DNA of 64,000 nt from Chrysogorgia sp. JL179-B06. Its lineage: Eukaryota; Cnidaria; Anthozoa; Scleralcyonacea; Chrysogorgiidae. The first letter of the stretch is position 1, and each line of letters begins with the position of its first letter. Below, piece by piece: positions 7,601-59,390 of this stretch. Both the position numbers and the translations under genes were made by a program. The notes under the pieces were generated by a model. It was not told the origin of the DNA. It was given only the letters and a program-made list of their open reading frames with translations, and ran no database searches. Location of the stretch: positions 248,001 to 312,000 of the forward strand of contig JAYKKM010000473.1 in assembly GCA_035772405.1 (NCBI GenBank), written 5' to 3'.

Positions 7601-7975
7601 GAACAGTTTCTCCTCTACAGTTTCTTCATAGTTTCAGAATAGCTTCTCAAAAGTTTCTTAATTGTTTCTCAATAGTTTCTCAACAATTTCTCAATATGTT
7701 TCCAATAGTTTTTAATAATTTTTTCTCAAAGGTTTTGCTATAGTTTCTCAATAGTTTCTCAATAATTTCTTAATAGTTTCTAAATAGTTTCTCAATAGTT
7801 TCCCAATGGTTTTGGTATAGTTTCTCAATAGTTTCTCAATAATTTCTTAATAGTTTCCCAATAGATTCGCAATAGTTTCTCAATAGTTTCTCAATAGTTT
7901 CCCAATAGTTTCTCAATATTTTCTCAATAGTTTCTCAACAATTTCTCAATATTTTATGAATAGTTTTTAAATAGT
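7600..7975. repeat. 11-bp minisatellite, left edge segment
   Basis: Units of TAGTTTCTCAA type begin here in degenerate form (ACAGTTTCTCC, ACAGTTTCTTC, TAGTTTCAGAA) and become more regular to the right. Many units carry substitutions or length changes. Higher divergence at an array edge is expected where unequal exchange homogenises mainly the interior. The segment is cut off from the main array by a LINE fragment. Confidence 0.9.
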
Positions 7976-8640
7976 TTAATAATTTAATAATAATAATTTG
8001 AAAATTTATATAGCGCTTTTTGCATAAAAATGATCAAAGCCGCTTTACAACATTGTTAATAAGTACAATTAATGATAAAAAGCCTGTTTAAAAAGATAAG
8101 TCTTAATATTACGCTTAAAAATTTCCAACAATGTAATGTCCCTGATATTTGGAGGTAAGGCGTTCCAAATTGTAGGTGCACCTGAGGCAAATGACCTGTC
8201 ACCTAGTGTGGTGAGTAATTTACTTCTGGGAGGTACTAAGAGTGTCCTACTGTTATTACGTAAATTATAATACCTAGAAAGACTCTTATAGTAATTAGGT
8301 CAACGATATAAAACGGAGCGATGACTTGATTGGCCTTAAATGTAAGAAGTAAAGTTTTATAGTCTATGCGAAAACGAATTGGGAGCCAATGAAGTTCTCG
8401 AAGAACTGGCATAATTGTGCAAAATTTAGGCATTCTACAAATAAGCCTAGCTGCTGTATTTTGTACTCTCTGTAGTTTAATCAGCTGTATCTGCGGCAAA
8501 CCATAAAGTAGACTGTTACAATAATACGTGTTACAATAATACGTGAGTAAGGATTTCCGCGGAATCACGAGACAAATACTTCCTTATGCTTCTGATGTTG
8601 TGCAGATGGTAAAACGATACACTGCAGATTTTGTCAATCA
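7976..8640 (-). pseudogene. CR1/L2-like LINE fragment, RT C-terminus
   Basis: On the minus strand, frames from about 8640 down to 8090 encode the C-terminal part of a LINE reverse-transcriptase ORF. Visible motifs are IRKYLSRDSAE, NSLLYGLPQIQLIKLQRVQN, TAARLICRMPK and LRELHWLPIRFRIDYKTLLL; after a frame break, FASGAPTIWNALPPNIRD and IKTYLFKQAF follow. This order is typical of CR1/L2-type RT ends. The 3' UTR (TATATAGCGCTTTTTGC region in complement) and an AAT-rich tail lie at 7976-8090. A 16-bp tandem duplication around 8517-8545 shifts the frame. The 5' end is truncated inside RT. It sits between two blocks of the 11-bp satellite, so it inserted into the array or was trapped by its growth. 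It is not functional. Confidence 0.85.
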
Positions 8641-42417: not shown

Positions 42418-42981
42418 ATTCTTAATAAAGGGCGATCTGCATGCAGATATCCTGAAACGTCAGCCATTTTCACCGATAACCCTTTGGTATCTTTTCGCCG
42501 TAATAAAAACATTCGTGACTCCTTAGTACATAGTGCCCTTAAGCAAAATACCTCGGCACCAGCGGGAACATTTTCTTGCGGTCGTTCCCGCTGTAACACA
42601 TGCGCTTTTCTCAATCCCACTACAGTTATTACTACCCCCAAATTCAACCACACAATCCGTCATACTTTTTTGTGCATTGCAACCAACATAATTTATTGCA
42701 TTTCTTGCGATAAATGCCCTAAAATATACATCGGTGAAACTGGGCAATGCCTTTCAGACAGGTTTGCTGAACATCTTCGTTCCGTGAGGATCAATGATGT
42801 TGACAAACCTGTAGCCCGCCATTTCAACAGCTCTAACCATTTGGTTTCAGACATGAAAGTCTGTGCCATCCTGCCCATCTCAGGTGGCATCGATAACCGC
42901 AAACGGCGAGAGAAGCGTCTCATTTTTAAACTTGGCACCACACATCCTCTTGGTCTTAACGAACGTTTTTCCTTTATTTAA
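42418..42981 (+). CDS. Penelope-like GIY-YIG endonuclease, 5'-partial
   Basis: An open frame of 187 codons with no start of its own; it runs out of the satellite junction and ends at TAA 42979-42981. Penelope-like elements encode one polyprotein of reverse transcriptase followed by a GIY-YIG endonuclease that nicks the target; only the C-terminal portion remains. The pre-endonuclease motif DNPLVSFRRNKNIRDSLVHS is clear. A cysteine cluster (CGRSRCNTC, then CISCDKC) is the zinc-binding-like region typical of these enzymes. The nuclease core has the KIYIGETGQ motif with an Arg (SDRFAEHL) and His downstream, a Glu in RREKRLIF, and an Asn near the end (GLNERF). The GIY half is degenerate (NIIYCISC), as is usual in this family. 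No internal stop or frameshift is seen in the remaining part, so this copy is fairly young. Reverse transcriptase is absent here. Confidence in the family is high; activity is impossible without the missing part. Confidence 0.88.
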   Translation: MLNKGRSACRYPETSAIFTDNPLVSFRRNKNIRDSLVHSALKQNTSAPAGTFSCGRSRCNTCAFLNPTTVITTPKFNHTIRHTFLCIATNIIYCISCDKCPKIYIGETGQCLSDRFAEHLRSVRINDVDKPVARHFNSSNHLVSDMKVCAILPISGGIDNRKRREKRLIFKLGTTHPLGLNERFSFI

Positions 42982-43271
42982 TTTCCTACAAGTTTTTTGT
43001 TATTTTAGTTTGCTTGGAACTTTTTATTATTATCTTATGCATTTCAAGTTTTGTTTCTTACTGCTTTAATATCATCTAATCCCCTTAATATTGGACCTGT
43101 CATTTCTCCTTCCTCCTCTGATCGACTGTAAAAATAGCAAATGATTTAACTTTTCGCATCTCATTAATTATTACTTTGTTTATCTGCAGAGAAAGTAGCC
43201 ATAATTTCTACTTGTGACACCGTTTTGGCATATATATAAGCCCTATTTATTTTATTTCATCTCGTCTTACT
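42982..43271 (+). other. Penelope-like 3' UTR
   Basis: Non-coding sequence between the endonuclease stop and the hammerhead-like motif. CGCATCTCATTAAT (about 43156) and GTGACACCGTTTTGGCATAT (about 43213) recur in the fragment at 55236-55345, which supports assignment to the element. Confidence 0.65.
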
Positions 43272-43320
43272 CTGATGAAGGGCTCCGCTCGAAACATCAG
43301 TATCTCGTCACTAAATTATT
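43262..43320 (+). ncRNA. Hammerhead-like ribozyme motif in Penelope 3' UTR
   Basis: The conserved core CTGATGA (43272-43278), a short stem II GGGC/GCTC with a TCC loop, GAAAC (43291-43295) and GTC (43307-43309) occur in the expected order. Penelope-like elements are known to carry hammerhead motifs. Stem I and stem III pair only weakly by eye, and an extra A precedes stem II, so self-cleavage is uncertain. A second copy with the same layout is at 58799-58837. Confidence 0.55.
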
Positions 43321-43345
43321 GGCAGTTTACCACCTTTTCACTTTG

Positions 43346-43717
<372 letters not shown>

Positions 43718-46940: not shown

Positions 46941-47017
46941 TGGGGTTAGGGTTAGAAAACCCATTAGGCGGGGGGTTAGGGTTAGAAAACCCATTAGGCG
47001 GGGGAGTTAGGGTTAGG
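46941..47017. repeat. Telomere-like TTAGGG tandem repeat
   Basis: Two and a half copies of a 30-bp unit carry GGTTAGGGTTAG followed by AAAACCCATTAGGCGGGG. The TTAGGG words match the animal telomere repeat, but the unit is composite and interstitial. A shorter TTAGGG cluster is at 54249-54285. Confidence 0.7.
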
Positions 47018-47140: not shown

Positions 47141-47401
<261 letters not shown>

Positions 47402-47465
47402 CTATTATTTGCTCTAACTATATGTTGTTGAGCACTCTTTGCATTTCGTAGACCAAAACCTACAC

Positions 47466-47497
<32 letters not shown>
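47466..47497. repeat. (TA)n microsatellite
   Basis: A TA run of about 30 bp. Confidence 0.95.
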
Positions 47498-47499
<2 letters not shown>

Positions 47500-47656
47500 C
47501 GTGTATTTTTCATTAAAGTCTGTCTGACGATCGCGTAAGCGTGAAACTCGGAGTAACAGCAAAGTGATGTCTTGTCTTTAATTTAACTACAATTTATTAC
47601 GCTCTGCAAATTAATGCATTGAGGACTCTACCGACAGTATAAACTCAATTCACCAG

Positions 47657-47920
<264 letters not shown>

Positions 47921-47939
47921 GTATATATATGTAATATAT

Positions 47940-48090
47940 ATGTAATATATGTGAGTAGATATGCATCTAGCCTATATACCTCAGAAACATTTTCTGAGTC
48001 CCTGATGGGAATCGAACCCGTAACCTACTGATTGCCGGTGAGACGCTCTAACCATTGAGCCACACGAACTAAGACGGAGAGCGAAGGGTT
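47940..48090 (-). mobile_element. tRNA-derived SINE, best copy
   Basis: On the minus strand a tRNA-like head contains an A box TGGCTCAATGG (complement of 48052-48062) and a perfect B box GGTTCGATTCC (complement of 48008-48018), about 34 bp apart as in a tRNA promoter. A body follows: CAGGGACTCAGAAAATG, TTTCTGAGGTATATAGGC, ATGCATATCT. The tail runs into ATATTACATATAT and (TA)n. It cannot be a tRNA gene because no acceptor stem closes the structure. Related fragments lie at 2255-2365, 2505-2605 and 48185-48395. RNA polymerase III would transcribe it if active. Confidence 0.8.
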
Positions 48091-48602: not shown

Positions 48603-48836
48603 CGGCCTTTTGGGACTCATCAGTGTAGTGCTGATGAGCAGGATGAAGATAACTGCTATTTACAGTCACCCTTGATGCACACAAAATGTGGGACATCAAA
48701 AATCATGCCAGAGCGCTCAAACTGCAAGCAGTGAGCGTGCGCACAATGGTTCATCCTGTAGAGCGCTCAATATGACCTAAAGGACATAGAGCGTATCTAA
48801 CTACAGACGGTACCGTTTCGGCCTTTTGGGCCTCAT
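48603..48836 (-). mobile_element. Retrozyme-like element with split hammerhead
   Basis: This 234-bp insertion lies in (TA)n and is bounded by 18-bp direct repeats: CGGCCTTTTGGGACTCAT at 48603-48620 and CGGCCTTTTGGGCCTCAT at 48819-48836, one mismatch, 216 bp apart. Each repeat is stem II of a hammerhead ribozyme on the minus strand. The right copy supplies ATGA, stem II GGCC-CAAAA-GGCC, GAAAC, stem III ACGGT/ACCGT and the GTC cleavage triplet (complement of 48806-48808), followed by TGTAG. The left copy supplies CTACA and CTGATGA (complement of 48617-48623), stem II, then GA. Joining the ends as a 216-nt circle gives a complete hammerhead, and CTACA/TGTAG forms stem I. This is the structure expected of a linear copy made from a ribozyme-bearing circular RNA. 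It has no ORF. Retrozyme is my inference; the hammerhead parts are directly visible. Confidence 0.78.
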
Positions 48837-49971: not shown

Positions 49972-50023
49972 AAAACCATCGCGTTTTCATTAAAACCATC
50001 GCGTTTTCATTAAAACCATCGCG
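49972..50023 (+). repeat. 20-bp tandem repeat before the LINE ORF
   Basis: 2.6 copies of AAAACCATCGCGTTTTCATT with an exact 20-bp period end 9 bp before the first ATG of the LINE ORF. Confidence 0.9.
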
Positions 50024-50031
50024 CATTAGTA

Positions 50032-50502
50032 ATGGCGGAAAGACGTCTAATTTTGAGCTCTGTTATTTTTGTGATTTTAGTCATAAAATTCGTTCTAGTT
50101 TCATCTGACACTTGTTGTGATGTATTTACATCTAAGAGGTCCTATCTATTGTGGAGGTTTTGCAAGCCAAATTTCCCAAACAAGGAAGGAAATGTCGATT
50201 GCAGAATGGGCATTCGATTCCGATATTCTCGTGACTTTACAAGCTTTAGCGGGTATGTCTTTGGCCTATTACTCTTGTGCGGCGATATCGCGACACAGCC
50301 TGGCCCTGGTCGATCAACAAACGCGGTTTCTCCCACTTACAAGTGCATGGTCTTAAATGCAAGAAGTTTGAAGAGTCTACACAAAATCACAGGCACTGAT
50401 GGGCAGACAGAACTATGCAATCTACATCGTTTTCAGGACTTTGTATACTCGGAGTACTCGGATATCGTGTGCGTTAACGAACATGGCTCAACGACAGCTT
50501 AG
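50032..50502 (+). pseudogene. LINE ORF, N-terminus with 2A-like motif and endonuclease start
   Basis: The frame opens with MAERRLILSSVIFVILVIKF, a signal- or membrane-like hydrophobic stretch. A second hydrophobic run (YVFGLLLLCGD) follows and leads into GDIATQPGPG at residues 84-93. This matches the 2A-like pattern D(V/I)ExNPGP found at the N-terminus of some APE-type LINEs, with Gln in place of the critical Asn and Ala in place of Glu. Canonical 2A causes the ribosome to skip one peptide bond; this variant is probably weak or dead. After it, MVLNARSL is the first APE-endonuclease motif and DIVCVNE carries the catalytic Glu. A one-base loss near 50478 then shifts the frame to an early stop. 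The ATG at 50032 is the first in-frame start after the tandem repeats. Confidence 0.8.
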
Positions 50503-50942
50503 ATAGTTCGGAAATTCTTCACGACGGTTATATTATATTTAGAAAGGATCGACCGCTTCGACGTGCAGGCGGTGTTTTGATTGCTATCAAAGCGAGTACT
50601 TTTAAAACTGTTCGTTAATTTCGCCTACCATCTAATTTGGCAGAATTAGAGATTGTATCGGCTGCAGTTGAAACGGTTACAGGTCAGAAAATCCTATTTT
50701 GCTCATGTTATCATCCGGAATTGGGAACAAGTTGGGTAGATTTATTCAATACCTTCTTAAATCTAGCCTGTGATCATTTTAATAATATCGTGTTATGTGG
50801 TGATTGCAATTTACCGGGAATCCCTTGGGACGCGACGGCTAGTGCAGCTGGTGCTAGTGAATTGCTGTTTGTTGACGCGTTAAATGACCACTTTTTATCA
50901 CAAATTAATAAGACGCCCACCCGAGGCAATAATTTTTCTTGA
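50478..50942 (+). pseudogene. LINE APE-type endonuclease, continuation
   Basis: In the shifted frame the endonuclease continues directly (TWLNDSLDSSEI, then RRAGGVLIAIK). An in-frame TAA at about 50617 interrupts it. It continues with CSCYHPELGTSW, NNIVLCGDCNLPGIPWD (the GDxN active-site motif, here GDCN) and TRGNN. A frameshift near 50940 separates it from the catalytic-domain end (LDLVITSNNDL), after which a fold-back element is inserted. In family members this domain nicks the target DNA. It is non-functional here. Confidence 0.82.
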
Positions 50943-50980
50943 CCTCGTGATCACTAGTAACAATGATCTCACCAAAGTAA

Positions 50981-51099
50981 GGCCCGTTTCAAACGTCGAA
51001 CTTCACATGTGCCGAACTCAATGCAAATGAAGTAGTCTTTTGTTTAAGCTCATTTGCATTGAGTTCGGCACATGAAAAGTTCGACGTTTGAAACGGGCC
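50981..51099. mobile_element. 119-bp MITE with TAA target duplication
   Basis: Long inverted repeats start GGCCCGTTTCAAACGTCGAA and end in the complement. The 3-bp TAA at 50978-50980 is repeated at 51100-51102. Removing the element and one TAA restores the LINE reading (TKV then TEVLSSESL), which proves it is an insertion. A second 119-bp member lies at 56673-56791 with TTA on both sides. A TWA duplication with GGCC-type ends suggests a PIF/Harbinger-derived (Tourist-like) element. Confidence 0.9.
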
Positions 51100-51270
51100 T
51101 AACTGAAGTATTGTCGTCTGAGAGCCTGAACAGGTATCTTTACAGATTACTCTGCCATTGTTTTCGAAATTAATTCCTTCGTGAAGGCGCCCTTAAAAAC
51201 AAGCAGGTCAGTTTTTGATTATGCTAACGGTGACCTTGAAAGCCTGCGAAATTCCTTACACGCGATCAAC

Positions 51271-51448
51271 AGGCGCGGATTTAGAAGTTAGTCGCATAAA
51301 TTAGATTTAGAATTTGCAATTCAAAATACCTGTGAATAACAATCCTATTGGATAGGTTTTTGTTCCGAATTATTCTTAAGAAAAGCATAACCAATAGGGT
51401 TGTTCATGAAGTGTCTAATTTATGCGACTAACTTCTAAATCCGCGCCT
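51271..51448. mobile_element. 178-bp MITE with 7-bp target duplication
   Basis: Inverted repeats begin AGGCGCGGATTTAGAAGTTA and extend about 34 bp through GTCGCATAAATTAG. GATCAAC precedes (51264-51270) and follows (51449-51455) the element. Removing it rejoins the LINE frame (LHAIN with LSSILDGDSDI). Because CAGG/CCTG also pairs, the exact end, and so a 5- to 7-bp duplication, is ambiguous. It has no coding capacity. Confidence 0.88.
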
Positions 51449-51455
51449 GATCAAC

Positions 51456-52142
51456 CTTTCGTCAATTTTAGACGGCGATAGTGATATCGATGAAGATTGG
51501 CAGCAATGGAAGGTGGTTTCTTGGCTGCTGTGAACGATTATATACCATCTAAGAAACTAAAGGGTCGCAACCCCATTACCATGGATAAACGGCACTATTT
51601 TGAATATGATTAAAAGCAAAAATACCCTTCGCCAAAAGTTAAGATCTCATCTTACAAAAAGTCTGAAATATAAATTCAGATGTATGCGGACCGAAGTTAA
51701 AAAGTCACTTAAAGAAGCCCGTGAAAGTTACTTTGAGTTGGCAAATGCTGATTTTAGAACAAATCCAAAGCGCTTGTGGTCAATTCTGAAATTAAAATCA
51801 AAATCCAGAGATATACCTGGTCTAGTTTCTATGGAAAATGAAATACACAGTCATCAAACAGCAGAGCAGTCAAGTCCAAGAGAAAATGCTGACACTCCAG
51901 AGGGAATTGCGAACTTGTTTAACAGGTACTTTAGTTCCGTATACACCATCACAGAGGACTCAAGTCTAGATACATCGTGCGAAGTTACTGAATGTATTGC
52001 AGACACGTTGATTCTTTCAGTCACAGAAGTTGAAGAAACTCTTAAAACTCTCGATATTAGTCAAGCTACAGGACCGGACGGAATTCCTGCCAAATTGCTC
52101 AAGGAAACTGCATCGGTAATTGCACCATCTTTGTGCAAATAA
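51456..52142 (+). pseudogene. LINE endonuclease-RT linker and RT start
   Basis: Frames here encode the linker typical of CR1/Jockey elements. After a shift near 51510, AAVNDYIPSKKLKG appears; after another, GTILNMIKSKN, then ESYFELANADFRTNPKRLWS and PEGIANLFNRYFSSVY. The RT fingers begin with ISQATGPDGIPAKLLKE, the first conserved RT motif. A stop at 52140-52142 interrupts it just before the next motif. Confidence 0.78.
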
Positions 52143-52154
52143 TTTAATAAATCT

Positions 52155-53256
52155 TTAAGGACTGGAGAAATGCCGGGAGATTGGAAATTAGCCAACGTGG
52201 TTCCTATTTACAAAAAGAACGAACGAGAACATGTAGAAAAACTATCGTCCAATATCTCTATTGTCAATAATTTCAAAAGTCTTAGAACGTTGCATATTAA
52301 ACAACATCAAAGATCAGTGGTACAAGTCAATTCCAGCATGTCAACATGGATATTTAACTTGAAAGTCGTGTGTGTTACTAATTTACTCGAGGCTCTAGAT
52401 CATTATTGGTTCATCACTCGACCATGGAGAACAGACAGATCTTGTGTATTTGGACATGTCAAAGGCCTTCGACAAGGTCAGCCACAATCGATTGATACAT
52501 AAATTATACAAGGCGGGTTTCAGTGGCAATTTGCTTAAGTGGTTTCGCTCATACCTATCTGAACGTCGTCAACGTGTCACAGTTATGGGTGCTACTTCGG
52601 ATGAGCTTCCTGTTACTTCCGGAGTGCCCCAAGGATCCATATTGGTTCCTGTTTTCTTCTTGTTGTACGTTAGCAATTTACCAAAAGCAATTTCTAATTG
52701 TCGTGCTACAATGTATGCTGACGACATAAAGATGGGCAGACAAATTAGAAATCCGGAGGATGCTATTCACTACAGTCTGATCTTGATAACTTGCAAACCT
52801 GGTCCGTTGCCTCAGGCCTTGTTTTTAATGCAACGAAGTGCAAAGCAATGAGTGTTACCAGAAAAATCAAGGCGGTTTCAACCACATACAGACTTGCTAA
52901 TACTGATCTCGAAATGATTGAAGATGAACGAGATCTTGGTGTATGGACTACAAACAGATTAACTTGGGATAAACAAGTCTCAGAACAAGCTGGCAAAGCC
53001 AATAAACTTTTAGGATATATTAAGCGAAACACCATTTATATCAAAGGTGTCTCGATCAGGCGTACGCTCTATCTAGGGTTGATTCGACCTCATTTAGGTT
53101 ATGCCACCCAGGTGTGGGCTCCGCAGTTCGTCCAATTGATTGGAAAATTAGAGCGCATACAAAGGCGTGCAATGAGATATATTCTTAGCATACCATATAG
53201 TTATAATGTAGATTACAATCTTCGATTGAACAAATTGAATCTTATCCCTATTACCT
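52155..53256 (+). pseudogene. LINE reverse transcriptase core
   Basis: The RT continues with GEMPGDWKLANVVPIYKK. A scrambled stretch (about 52220-52440) follows, where the NYRPIS-type motif is lost through small deletions. The frame then recovers with YLDMSKAFDKVSHNRLI, SGVPQGSIL and MYADD. YADD at 52714-52725 is the catalytic motif with both aspartates kept. A further shift near 52775 leads to LQTWSVASGLVFNATKCKAM, DLGVWTTNRLTWDKQ, IRPHLGYATQVWAP and LERIQRRAMRYI. These are the thumb and C-terminal features of CR1-like RTs. The catalytic residues are intact but the frame is broken at several places. Confidence 0.88.
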
Positions 53257-53559
53257 AGTGGCATGAAACTACAGGATATGATATTTTTCTTCAAGATTAT
53301 TCATGGACTAGTCATTATAGATCATACCATTATACCTACGGCCAGAAACACCAGGTCGACCAGATCATCTGCGAGCAATGTGATAACGTTTGAAATGCCA
53401 AAATACAAGACAACTACATATCAGCGTTCTTATTTTGTACGAACATGTAGAGTGTGGAACGCTTTGGCAGATGAACTTTGTTTGAGTACTAACAATCTAA
53501 TCTCTTTTAAAACAATTATGCTCAATTATTACAAAGCATCATTGTCAAATTATCAATAG
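53257..53559 (+). pseudogene. LINE ORF C-terminal end
   Basis: After a stop at 53256 and a frame change, the C-terminus reads LQDMIFFFKIIHGL, RSYFVRTCRVWNALADEL and FKTIMLNYY, ending at a stop at 53557-53559. This layout is typical of the last 100 residues of CR1/Jockey RT proteins. The 3' UTR (53560-53800) follows, with an A/T-rich tail. Confidence 0.8.
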
Positions 53560-57869: not shown

Positions 57870-57900
<31 letters not shown>

Positions 57901-57901
57901 A

Positions 57902-57934
<33 letters not shown>
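57870..57934. repeat. Two (TA)n tracts flanking a ribozyme element
   Basis: TA runs at 57870-57896 and 57905-57934 are separated by GTACAATG. The same GTACAAT starts the ribozyme element at 57935. Confidence 0.9.
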
Positions 57935-57938
<4 letters not shown>

Positions 57939-57998
57939 AATATCTACAGACACGTGTTTCGCTGTTCCACAGCTCATCAGTGTAGCTTGGTACAATCT
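57935..57998 (-). ncRNA. Type I hammerhead ribozyme, well formed
   Basis: Minus strand, in order: stem I strand CTACA, CTGATGA (complement of 57974-57980), 5-bp stem II GCTGT-GGA-ACAGC, GAAAC (57956-57960), stem III ACAC/GTGT, GTC (57949-57951) and stem I partner TGTAG (57944-57948). Distal stem I continues with GTAC pairing beyond an internal loop. All core nucleotides are present. The self-complementary stem III with no loop is like the short stem III of retroelement hammerheads that act best as dimers. Predicted cleavage follows the C pairing with position 57949. Confidence 0.85.
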
Positions 57999-58107
57999 AG
58001 ATATGGGCATGAGTACTAATTATACACAAACGATTGCCAGTGACAACCGCTTGTGGGATAAACAGCGGTCAATCGCACATCCAGAGAGCGTGAAGCGGTA
58101 TAGGGCC

Positions 58108-58110
<3 letters not shown>
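57935..58110 (-). mobile_element. Retrozyme-like element with complete hammerhead
   Basis: A 176-bp insertion sits between two (TA)n tracts. On the minus strand it ends with a complete hammerhead ribozyme (separate entry). The rest has no ORF and no tRNA-like promoter boxes. A single ribozyme copy means it is one monomer or a truncated copy. Its 3' side (minus strand) ends at GATATTGTAC just past the cleavage site, close to the TA junction. Confidence 0.75.

Positions 58111-58160
<50 letters not shown>
58111..58160. repeat. (TA)n microsatellite between two ribozyme elements
   Basis: A TA run of about 50 bp separating oppositely oriented hammerhead elements. Confidence 0.95.
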
Positions 58161-58165
<5 letters not shown>

Positions 58166-58198
58166 TGACTGTGATGATGTATATACCTTTTTGATGTG

Positions 58199-58277
58199 CT
58201 GGCTTATCATCAGCTACACTGTGCTGACGAGCTCCAAGAGAGCGAAACAGCTGTCCACAGTTGCTGATGATAGCCAG
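58199..58277 (+). ncRNA. Type I hammerhead ribozyme, unit 1
   Basis: Core CTGACGA (58224-58230); stem II GCTC-CAAGA-GAGC (58231-58243); GAAAC (58244-58248); stem III ACAG/CTGT (58247-58254); GTC with predicted cleavage after 58255. Stem I is CTGTG (58219-58223) with CACAG (58256-58260), then an internal loop, then CTGGCTTATCATCAGC (58199-58214) pairing with GCTGATGATAGCCAG (58263-58277) with one bulged base. The internal loop in stem I opposite loop II is the arrangement that supports tertiary contacts in natural hammerheads. Confidence 0.92.
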
Positions 58278-58436
58278 ACACTGCAATTATGTTTTGTCAT
58301 TTCAGCCAGTAAAAGTGCGCAATGCACACTGAGTTGATATAGACTATAACGTTCTTGATGGTTTATAATTTATGCAGTGTGGTATATCCCACATCAAGTC
58401 CTTTGACTGTGATGATGTATATACCTTTTTGATGTG

Positions 58437-58515
58437 CTGGCTTATCATCAGCTACACTGTGCTGACGAGCTCCAAGAGAGCGAAACAGCTGTCCACAGTT
58501 GCTGATGATAGCCAG
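58437..58515 (+). ncRNA. Type I hammerhead ribozyme, unit 2
   Basis: A copy of the unit-1 ribozyme shifted by 238 bp: CTGACGA at 58462-58468, GAAAC at 58482-58486, predicted cleavage after 58493. Cleavage at both sites would release a 238-nt RNA (58256-58493). Confidence 0.92.
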
Positions 58516-58655
58516 ACACTGCAATTATGTTTTGTCATTTCAGCCAGTAAAAGTGCGCAATGCACACTGAGTTGATATAGACTATAACGTTCTTGATGGT
58601 TTATAATTTATGCAGTGTGGTATATCCCACATCAAGTCCTTTGACTGTGATGATG

Positions 58656-58676
58656 TATATATATATATATATATAT
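58656..58676. repeat. (TA)n microsatellite
   Basis: The TA run replaces the rest of the third retrozyme unit and precedes a Penelope-type 3' end. Confidence 0.9.
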
Positions 58677-58677
58677 A

Positions 58678-58862
58678 GGTAATATTTGGCATTTCCCTAT
58701 GGATCCCTGCCGCGGCGAGATTATCACCGTCGCTTGCATTTGATGGACTAACTGTTGTGATCAATGGCTTATGGATTTATTGCATCTCGACTTATACTCT
58801 GATGAAAGGGCTACGCTCGAAACGTAAATATTTCGTCATTAAAAATCTTGGCAGTTTACCAT
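58678..58862 (+). mobile_element. Penelope-type 3' end fragment
   Basis: From about 58783 (CATCTCGACTTATACTCTG) to 58862 (GGCAGTTTACCA) it matches the 3' end of the Penelope-like element at 43258-43333. The preceding 100 bp is not clearly similar. The fragment starts against (TA)n. No coding sequence remains. Confidence 0.65.
58790..58850 (+). ncRNA. Hammerhead-like motif, Penelope type
   Basis: CTGATGA (58799-58805), stem II GGGC/GCTC around TAC, GAAAC (58819-58823), stem III ACG/CGT around an A/T-rich loop, and GTC (58835-58837). Stem III pairs better than in the 43272 copy. Stem I is weak, so cleavage is uncertain. Confidence 0.55.
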
Positions 58863-58902
58863 ATTTTTACCACCTTGGTTTGTTTTCTGCGGTAATTCAG
58901 TC

Positions 58903-59390
58903 TCCATCACTGTAGCCTGTGTACAGCCTGAATATACACCTGCAATACAGTCTGTGAAAATTCGCACGATAGCTTGTCGACCCCCCACTGAGCTACTCAT
59001 ATCTGAGTAGTAGATTTTGAGTGGTTTAATACACATATCATTCATAATTGTTTGTTTGATTGGATTATTTGATCTCACACGAATTCCCAGAGAACCAATT
59101 GTAACTGGAATAAGACAAGAGTTGTGATTTGGACAATCATAATCTACTTCTTAGATCTGAGTAGCTCAGCGGGGGTCGACAAGCTATCGTGCGAGTTTTC
59201 ACAGACTGTATTACAGGTGTATATTCAGGCTGTACACAGGCTACATCACTGGGGCAGTTGGATTTGACCGGCAATTTCAGGATTTTTCAACTTTGCAATT
59301 GATTTACTTAAATCTAATGAATCGTAAACCGTTGAAAAATATAGATATTTCCGGTCAAAATCCGACTGCCCCATTGATGGAGATTGCTTA
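58903..59390. mobile_element. Fold-back element with ~110-bp arms
   Basis: The left arm (58903-59015) and right arm (about 59142-59245, resuming after 59377) are complementary over long stretches. Examples are GTGTACAGCCTGAATATACA with TGTATATTCAGGCTGTACAC, and CGATAGCTTGTCGACCCCC with GGGGGTCGACAAGCTATCG. About 125 bp of non-coding spacer separates them. The outer end of the right arm is split by another fold-back element; TGATGGAGA resumes after it. Confidence 0.82.
59253..59376. mobile_element. Nested ~124-bp fold-back element
   Basis: Arms GGGGCAGTTGGATTTGACCGG and CCGGTCAAAATCCGACTGCCCC bound it, with TTTTTCAACTTT and TTGAAAAATAT paired further in. It interrupts the right arm of the surrounding fold-back element, so it is the younger insertion. 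Confidence 0.8.

Follow-up and report, generated by a model that had tools for sequence, protein, structure and literature searches.

The family A array and its neighbours

The window analysed here comprises 64,000 nucleotides of the genome of Chrysogorgia sp. JL179-B06 (C473:248001-312000 of a 781-Mb assembly with 522 contigs), and all coordinates refer to it unless stated otherwise. Towards its right end lies a tandem array of 238-bp units, referred to here as retrozyme family A, with the following features:

58110-58160: (TA)n tract on the 5' side of the array, common to the 5' side of element D
58161..58661, + strand: family A array, two 238-bp units followed by 22 bp of a third; exact period over 58164-58661
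58199..58277, + strand: type I hammerhead of unit 1, predicted cut at 58255/58256 (Rfam HH9, descriptor, pairing)
58437..58515, + strand: type I hammerhead of unit 2, predicted cut at 58493/58494 (Rfam HH9, descriptor, pairing)
58656..58661, + strand: TATATA, unit positions 163-168, putative main cDNA start, located where the 3' end meets (TA)n; further copies at 58418-58423 and 58180-58185
58362..58367, + strand: TTTATA, unit positions 107-112, putative second cDNA start; again at 58600-58605
58656-58677: (TA)n tract at the 3' junction, overlapping the TATATA of the unit

An earlier note had described an exact tandem that runs on into the start of a third unit and is bounded by (TA)n, and this description holds throughout (TRF, 58164-58661: 2.1 copies, period 238, 100% matches; 22 bp of the third unit). 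Mapped on the unit, in which position 1 is the base after the cut, the array starts at position 147 and ends at position 168. The unit has a GC content of 41% (i.e. below 50%) and no LTR, primer-binding site, or polypurine tract apparent by eye in its 238 bp. Its RNA is predicted to fold stably, both as a linear molecule (z -5.7) and as a circle (z -6.1, 67% paired).

The type I hammerhead proposed for each unit was recovered by the Rfam model Hammerhead_HH9 in E-value mode (58205-58278 and 58443-58516, 37.0 bits, E 8.4e-8) and by a core-and-stem descriptor, which finds both copies with 12 stem pairs. Based on 172 Mb of simulated first-order Markov sequence, 0.008 descriptor matches of 12-pair strength and 0.10 of any strength are expected by chance per window on both strands. 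The Rfam gathering score of HH9 is 52, so that the default gathering-mode scan, with a tRNA as its sole entry in the window, is silent on both ribozymes; the covariance-model test suggested in the earlier note thus formally fails on score, although the E-value is strong. The open stem is stem I, making the ribozyme type I and not type III, and the predicted cleavage sites are those given previously. Two details of the helices needed correction. The inner part of stem I has 6 bp instead of 5 (descriptor and pairing analysis), and a 4-bp stem III is impossible within one copy because ACAGCUGU is a palindrome without a loop. Within a single copy, stem III shortens to 2 bp with AGCU as its loop, and pairing over the full length requires a second copy. 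The z-score for folding of the 79-nt motif is -6.5; in a folding model without tertiary contacts, the minimum-energy fold of a single motif (-37.8) is 5.9 kcal/mol below the hammerhead fold (-31.9), and in none of A, B, and D is the plain hammerhead the structure of lowest energy, B and D being the families introduced below. The ribozyme core is intact in 135 of 142 family A units, taken from arrays among the best 40 of 501 candidate places, and transcripts of the array are predicted to cleave themselves at each hammerhead.

Two further hammerhead elements are found in the window:

57932..58110, - strand: element D, from a second retrozyme family with a 280-bp unit, of which 0.64 is present; 3' end at unit position 17, adjoining (TA)n at 57870-57934
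57937..57995, - strand: hammerhead of D, predicted cut at 57949/57948 (descriptor, 12 pairs, at 57980-57950)
48604..48836, - strand: element B, one unit (216 bp here) plus a 19-nt terminal redundancy, between (TA)n tracts

Elements D and A stand back to back across 58110-58160, with their 3' ends pointing outward. The hammerhead of D is weaker than those of A (HH9 19.8 bits, E 0.015) and its folding energy is not unusual. A first reading of D as a Penelope-like fragment was abandoned, since arrays of 280-bp units show it to be a tandem hammerhead family. The terminal redundancy of B contains one mismatch, and terminal repeats of at least 17 nt occur in only one of 894 control segments; in this copy the break falls within the hammerhead core, so that the two ends have to be joined to make the core whole. 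A local alignment of A and B scores above all 500 shuffles only if the hammerhead is part of it; without the core, 228 of 1000 shuffles reach the score, and A and B are therefore treated as separate families. No shared origin is claimed for A and D, whose score is reached by 12 of 500 shuffles, or for B and D, with 19 of 500.

The window also contains an 11-bp satellite with the unit AATAGTTTCTC, which forms a 33.8-kb array (8641-42414) and recurs at 7619-7977, and a LINE-like retrotransposon (50014-53258, + strand, RVT_1 58.9 bits) with an A-rich end, not (TA)n. A tRNA-Ala (GGC) match at 47996-48069 (- strand), located between inverted repeats and (TA)n tracts, may be the head of a SINE rather than a tRNA gene. 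Nearby are a 30-bp repeat (46942-47016, 2.5 copies with TTAGGG-type motifs in each), a near-perfect palindromic element flanked by two (TA)n tracts (47250-47466), and, judged by eye, a hammerhead-like hairpin at 47524 (+ strand) whose stem II has a U-U mismatch at its base. The segment containing this hairpin (47498-47659), again between two (TA)n tracts, has no further copy among 75 sequences compared. To the right of the family A array, a MITE-like inverted repeat (58911-59245) has 75-nt arms that are 97% complementary and 185 nt apart. A scan of viral contigs with ribozyme patterns gave no matches, and a pattern scan of genome contigs gave two bacterial matches.

Junctions of dispersed copies

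The earlier note had proposed a search of the genome for other tandem copies, and 501 candidate places were found in the assembly with the family A array as query. The best 40 were scored (125 match rows, 93-100% identity), and 39 further loci were read. One locus, on contig C385, was left out as a copy of the window locus. The order of Penelope-like, B, D, and A elements on this contig (L011, L051, L080) is that of the window, pointing to an alternative haplotype or a segmental duplication. The window and the remaining 38 loci yielded 44 blocks of at least 50 nt, 40 of them with readable flanks. Six of these were dropped for shared flanks, some perhaps needlessly, leaving 34 inserts. Loci that share flanks include the window and C385, L022 and L030, and L036 and L040. 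The junctions of these dispersed copies provide evidence for retrotransposition beyond what one locus could give.

The 3' ends are confined to two internal UA-rich sites of the unit in 31 of the 34 inserts (among the best 40 of 501 places), at position 168 in 21 and position 112 in 10, with the last three at 163, 137, and 23. A (TA)n tract of at least 8 nt lies within 3 nt of the 3' end in 28/34 inserts and at the 5' end in 16/34, compared with a background of 990 among 28,800 non-satellite window positions (3.4%), and 13 inserts have (TA)n on the 3' side alone. Any target-site duplication at A is masked by (TA)n on both sides. The 5' ends are spread across 28 positions of the unit, all more than 2 nt away from the cut site, and an early idea that the left junction arose via a CCTTT deletion was dropped once this scatter was found. 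Fixed 3' and loose 5' ends are a mark of target-primed reverse transcription. All 34 inserts, 1.56 to 14.95 units long, cross the cut site, indicating that the template is a circular or an uncut RNA, and their 5' ends away from this site likewise exclude the cut linear monomer. Two other UA-rich stretches of the unit, ATATA (82-86) and TATAT (128-132), never serve as 3' ends in these inserts, and the start sequence of family D (UACUAU) is not the longest UA run of its unit; thus, UA matching alone does not choose the start.

Some arrays occur as inverted pairs. Two family A arrays are joined 5' to 5' with their 3' ends outward in L020 and L028, and L024 has the same arrangement with a 353-bp gap between the arrays; in L049, a start-site 3' end is found in only one of the two arms. 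The pairs in L020 and L024 have one start site of each kind, L028 nearly so, and the complete units of both arms of L028 (G000:C38:620660-624510) are identical; in its minus arm, (GT)n precedes (TA)n. These start-site pairs and the identical L028 units suggest that cDNA synthesis can begin from each of the two strands of a single target, perhaps with one circle as the common template.

Families D and B appear to use the same route as A, judging from their junctions. For D, with 1946 candidate places of which the best 40 were scored, 20 of the 24 listed loci besides the window and C385 were read. Together with the window they gave 29 blocks, and 27 were kept after two had been dropped for shared flanks. 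The 3' end falls at position 17, just past the cut site, in 23/27 inserts; (TA)n is found on the 3' side in 21/27 (in 7 inserts on this side alone) and on the 5' side in 16/27. Most D inserts span the cut site (25/27), only one has its 5' end within 2 nt of it, and the 5' ends scatter, with 8/27 at positions 79-83. Family B forms arrays of ~230-bp units elsewhere (1362 candidate places, best 40 scored), and in 30 of these 40 the last match stops at query positions 37-44, just past the cut site, a tally counted by eye in which the last few letters can be TA flank. Of the seven B copies read directly, five end at this site (four into long (TA)n and one into TATATA), and the copies in the window and L021 end elsewhere.

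Sequence uniformity within arrays was assessed in 142 complete family A units from 40 arrays (C385 excluded, shared-flank loci included), using seven positions that separate subfamilies. Across the 30 arrays with at least two complete units, only 2 of 210 array-by-site cells were mixed, both due to gaps, whereas random dealing of the units gave a mean of 82 mixed cells and never fewer than 62 (1000 permutations). The median difference between units was 0.4% within arrays vs. 2.1% between arrays (C385 included), and L015 contains 8 identical complete units and L023 contains 7. Examples with more difference inside the array than to the nearest neighbour (L013, L024+, L030) are as later mutation would give. 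Crossing-over could homogenise arrays too, and this uniformity is thus by itself no proof of a circle. Divergence is low overall, and the ribozyme was not seen to be better conserved than other parts of the unit.

A Penelope-like element as candidate helper

The candidate for a helper enzyme in the window is a Penelope-like element, represented by two pieces:

42418..43346, + strand: 3' part of a Penelope-like element, with a GIY-YIG frame (42418-42981) followed by an untranslated end that runs into (TA)n at 43347
58776..58870, + strand: degenerate fragment of the Penelope-like 3' end, 82% identical

The first piece adjoins the right end of the 11-bp satellite at 42418. Its frame matches GIY-YIG with an E-value of 0.0027 and has 137 protein relatives, and a sequence search of the PDB with this frame returned no relative. 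A fuller relative in L077 encodes both RVT_1 (E 8.5e-7, 29.3 bits vs. a cut-off of 29.6) and GIY-YIG (E 0.0009, 19.9 bits vs. a cut-off of 22.6) in consecutive frames of a frameshifted copy, and the relatives P0053, P0057, and P0094 exceed the GIY-YIG cut-off. The Penelope-like 3' end also contains CTGATGA...CGAAAC hairpins at 43272 (+ strand) and 58799 (+ strand), which by eye resemble the minimal hammerheads without helix III reported for Penelope-like elements.

Among 3636 candidate copies of this element, the best 40 were scored and 3' ends were retrieved for 20 of the 38 additional copies in the list; the anchor motif was present in 18 of these 20, giving 19 ends. Eight of the 19 end at CACTTTGC followed by (TA)n (site 1), and five end ~40 nt further on, again followed by (TA)n (site 2), with four of the latter close together on C334; the other six lie off both sites. 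Site 2 is also present in L024, L035, and L077. The two sites together account for 13/19 ends, and their spacing agrees with the optional tail of 30-40 nt between two start sites that marks Penelope-like elements. Moreover, in 105 sequences, some of them overlapping, we found five (TA)n tracts at which the 3' ends of two elements meet face to face: Penelope-like and A in L021 and L024, B and A in L025 and L034, and Penelope-like and D in L072.

The biochemistry of a purified Penelope-like enzyme from an anole offers a precedent for this pattern. It starts cDNA at two adjacent internal sites, which explains the tail of its element, prefers AT-rich DNA, and extends both strands (PMC11167929). 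As reported in the same source, its start site is not homologous to the cut DNA, uncut RNA is its main substrate, and hammerhead mutants were inserted equally well (PMC11167929). The non-homologous start and the preference for uncut RNA count against parts of a reading that combines a circle with (TA)n.

Proposed copying through circular RNA and relation to known retrozymes

We consider it likely that the array in the window is a non-autonomous retrozyme copied through circular RNA, by Penelope-like priming at nicked (TA)n. In this model, the array transcript would cut itself at each hammerhead, perhaps aided by palindromic stem III pairing between copies, and a host ligase would close the 238-nt monomer into a circle. 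A Penelope-like protein with reverse transcriptase and GIY-YIG endonuclease would nick a (TA)n microsatellite, and a free 3' end of the nicked DNA, in some cases one on each strand, would prime cDNA synthesis at UAUAUA (ending at 168) or UUUAUA (ending at 112) of the circle. The enzyme would then run round the circle without a fixed stop, yielding the observed 1.6 to 15 units, before the cDNA end is joined to the target. The junctions indicate that reverse transcription at (TA)n is target-primed and probably rolling-circle, and the helper is probably the Penelope-like enzyme; the circular intermediate, the cleavage, and this enzyme are deduced from sequence patterns. The broader proposition that hammerhead RNA circles of several unrelated families serve as substrates of one Penelope-like machine, primed from nicked (TA)n and copied by rolling circle, seems to us evenly balanced.

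The most direct challenge to a circular template is that a long uncut transcript of an existing array was copied by an otherwise identical mechanism for which the hammerhead is not needed. The behaviour of the anole enzyme on unprocessed RNA and mutated hammerheads (PMC11167929) speaks for this option, any uncut multimer would span the cut site as well, and copies of an already homogeneous array would likewise be homogeneous. Such a template leaves unexplained, however, how long arrays of identical units as in L015 and L023 originated and why the ribozyme core was kept in almost all units, and circles of such elements are known in coral, mussel, and axolotl (PMC7229834), so that we regard it as unlikely. 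Ordinary satellite DNA, spread by unequal crossing-over and segmental duplication without retrotransposition, would fit the tandem form of the units, the loci with shared flanks, and the homogeneity within arrays, which crossing-over also yields. It is nevertheless very improbable in view of the 34 inserts, which differ in their flanks and combine fixed 3' with scattered 5' ends, of the inverted 5'-to-5' pairs, and of the same junction pattern in three unrelated families.

The (TA)n tracts could themselves be tails that arose when the reverse transcriptase slipped on UAUAUA as it began to copy, as the inserts with (TA)n on the 3' side alone (13/34 in A, 7/27 in D) would suggest, rather than the target. 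This is quite improbable considering that 5'-side tracts accompany about half of the inserts (16/34 in A and 16/27 in D) against the 3.4% background, that five tracts are common to facing 3' ends of two elements, and that a long UA run is absent from the start sites of the B and D RNAs. The helper, in turn, might be a LINE-type retrotransposon instead of a Penelope-like element. A LINE reverse transcriptase is encoded in the window itself (52399-52848, RVT_1 58.9 bits), and hammerhead repeats of Nematostella carry target duplications of 15 bp that resemble the duplications of LINEs (PMC4918200). We find a LINE helper doubtful, as the 3' end of the one LINE examined is A-rich, not (TA)n, and both the arrays joined 5' to 5' and the use of two start sites match a Penelope-like enzyme.

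We conclude that family A is a new family of the animal non-LTR retrozymes described by Cervera and de la Peña in 2020, e.g. in the coral Acropora, the mussel Mytilus, and the axolotl (PMC7229834). Like these, it has a small non-coding unit (238 bp vs. 220-240 bp in corals), a type I hammerhead whose weak stem III carries a palindromic tetraloop, low-GC arrays of two to many units, a predicted self-paired circle, and Penelope-like elements in the same genome (PMC7229834). Family A also has the dispersed tandem units of this group (~150-450 bp, dimers to many-mers), and the retrozyme reading of the earlier note gains support from unit size, hammerhead type, arrays, GC content, and the stable self-paired circle. 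Unlike the published families, the sequence of A is new to the searches made. The cited account of animal retrozymes, as far as it was available, does not describe a fixed internal 3' end, (TA)n, scattered 5' ends, or inverted pairs, and it reports target duplications of more than 4 bp when present (PMC7229834), which at A are masked by (TA)n. Hammerhead satellite DNAs of newts and salamanders share the type I motif in tandem units and a weak stem III, through which the dimer is favoured as the active form, but their units measure 330-350 bp (PMC7229834). Plant LTR retrozymes are similarly non-coding, with hammerheads flanking the unit and a circular RNA intermediate (the circle of A being a prediction), yet they differ in their type III hammerhead, LTRs, primer-binding site, polypurine tract, and 4-bp duplications (PMC4918200); the type I hammerhead rules out a plant-type LTR retrozyme. 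Poseidon, a Penelope-like element of the green anole, resembles A in that its 3' ends are confined to a pair of neighbouring internal sites, its targets are AT-rich and used on both strands, and it has tandem copies and hammerhead motifs (PMC11167929). Family A differs from it in that the unit lacks a reading frame of its own and in that its start sites resemble the target, whereas that of the anole enzyme is not homologous to the cut DNA (PMC11167929).

The kind of element is known, and the start rule common to four elements was not found in the literature searched. This search revealed no link of retrozymes to (TA)n or microsatellite targets, although Penelope-like insertion into microsatellites may already be described. 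A 2020 review, in the portion available, states that retrozyme repeats show no motif pointing to a helper (PMC7761336), and the route by which animal retrozyme circles return to DNA, and the enzyme used, have so far been left open. Here, three hammerhead families and one Penelope-like element in a single genome have a common target and start rule, which defines an assay with this circle, that protein, and a (TA)n primer. The junction rule can also be checked in the genomes of coral, mussel, and axolotl. If the proposition of one shared machine is true, TA microsatellites would be landing pads for a guild of circular-RNA parasites.
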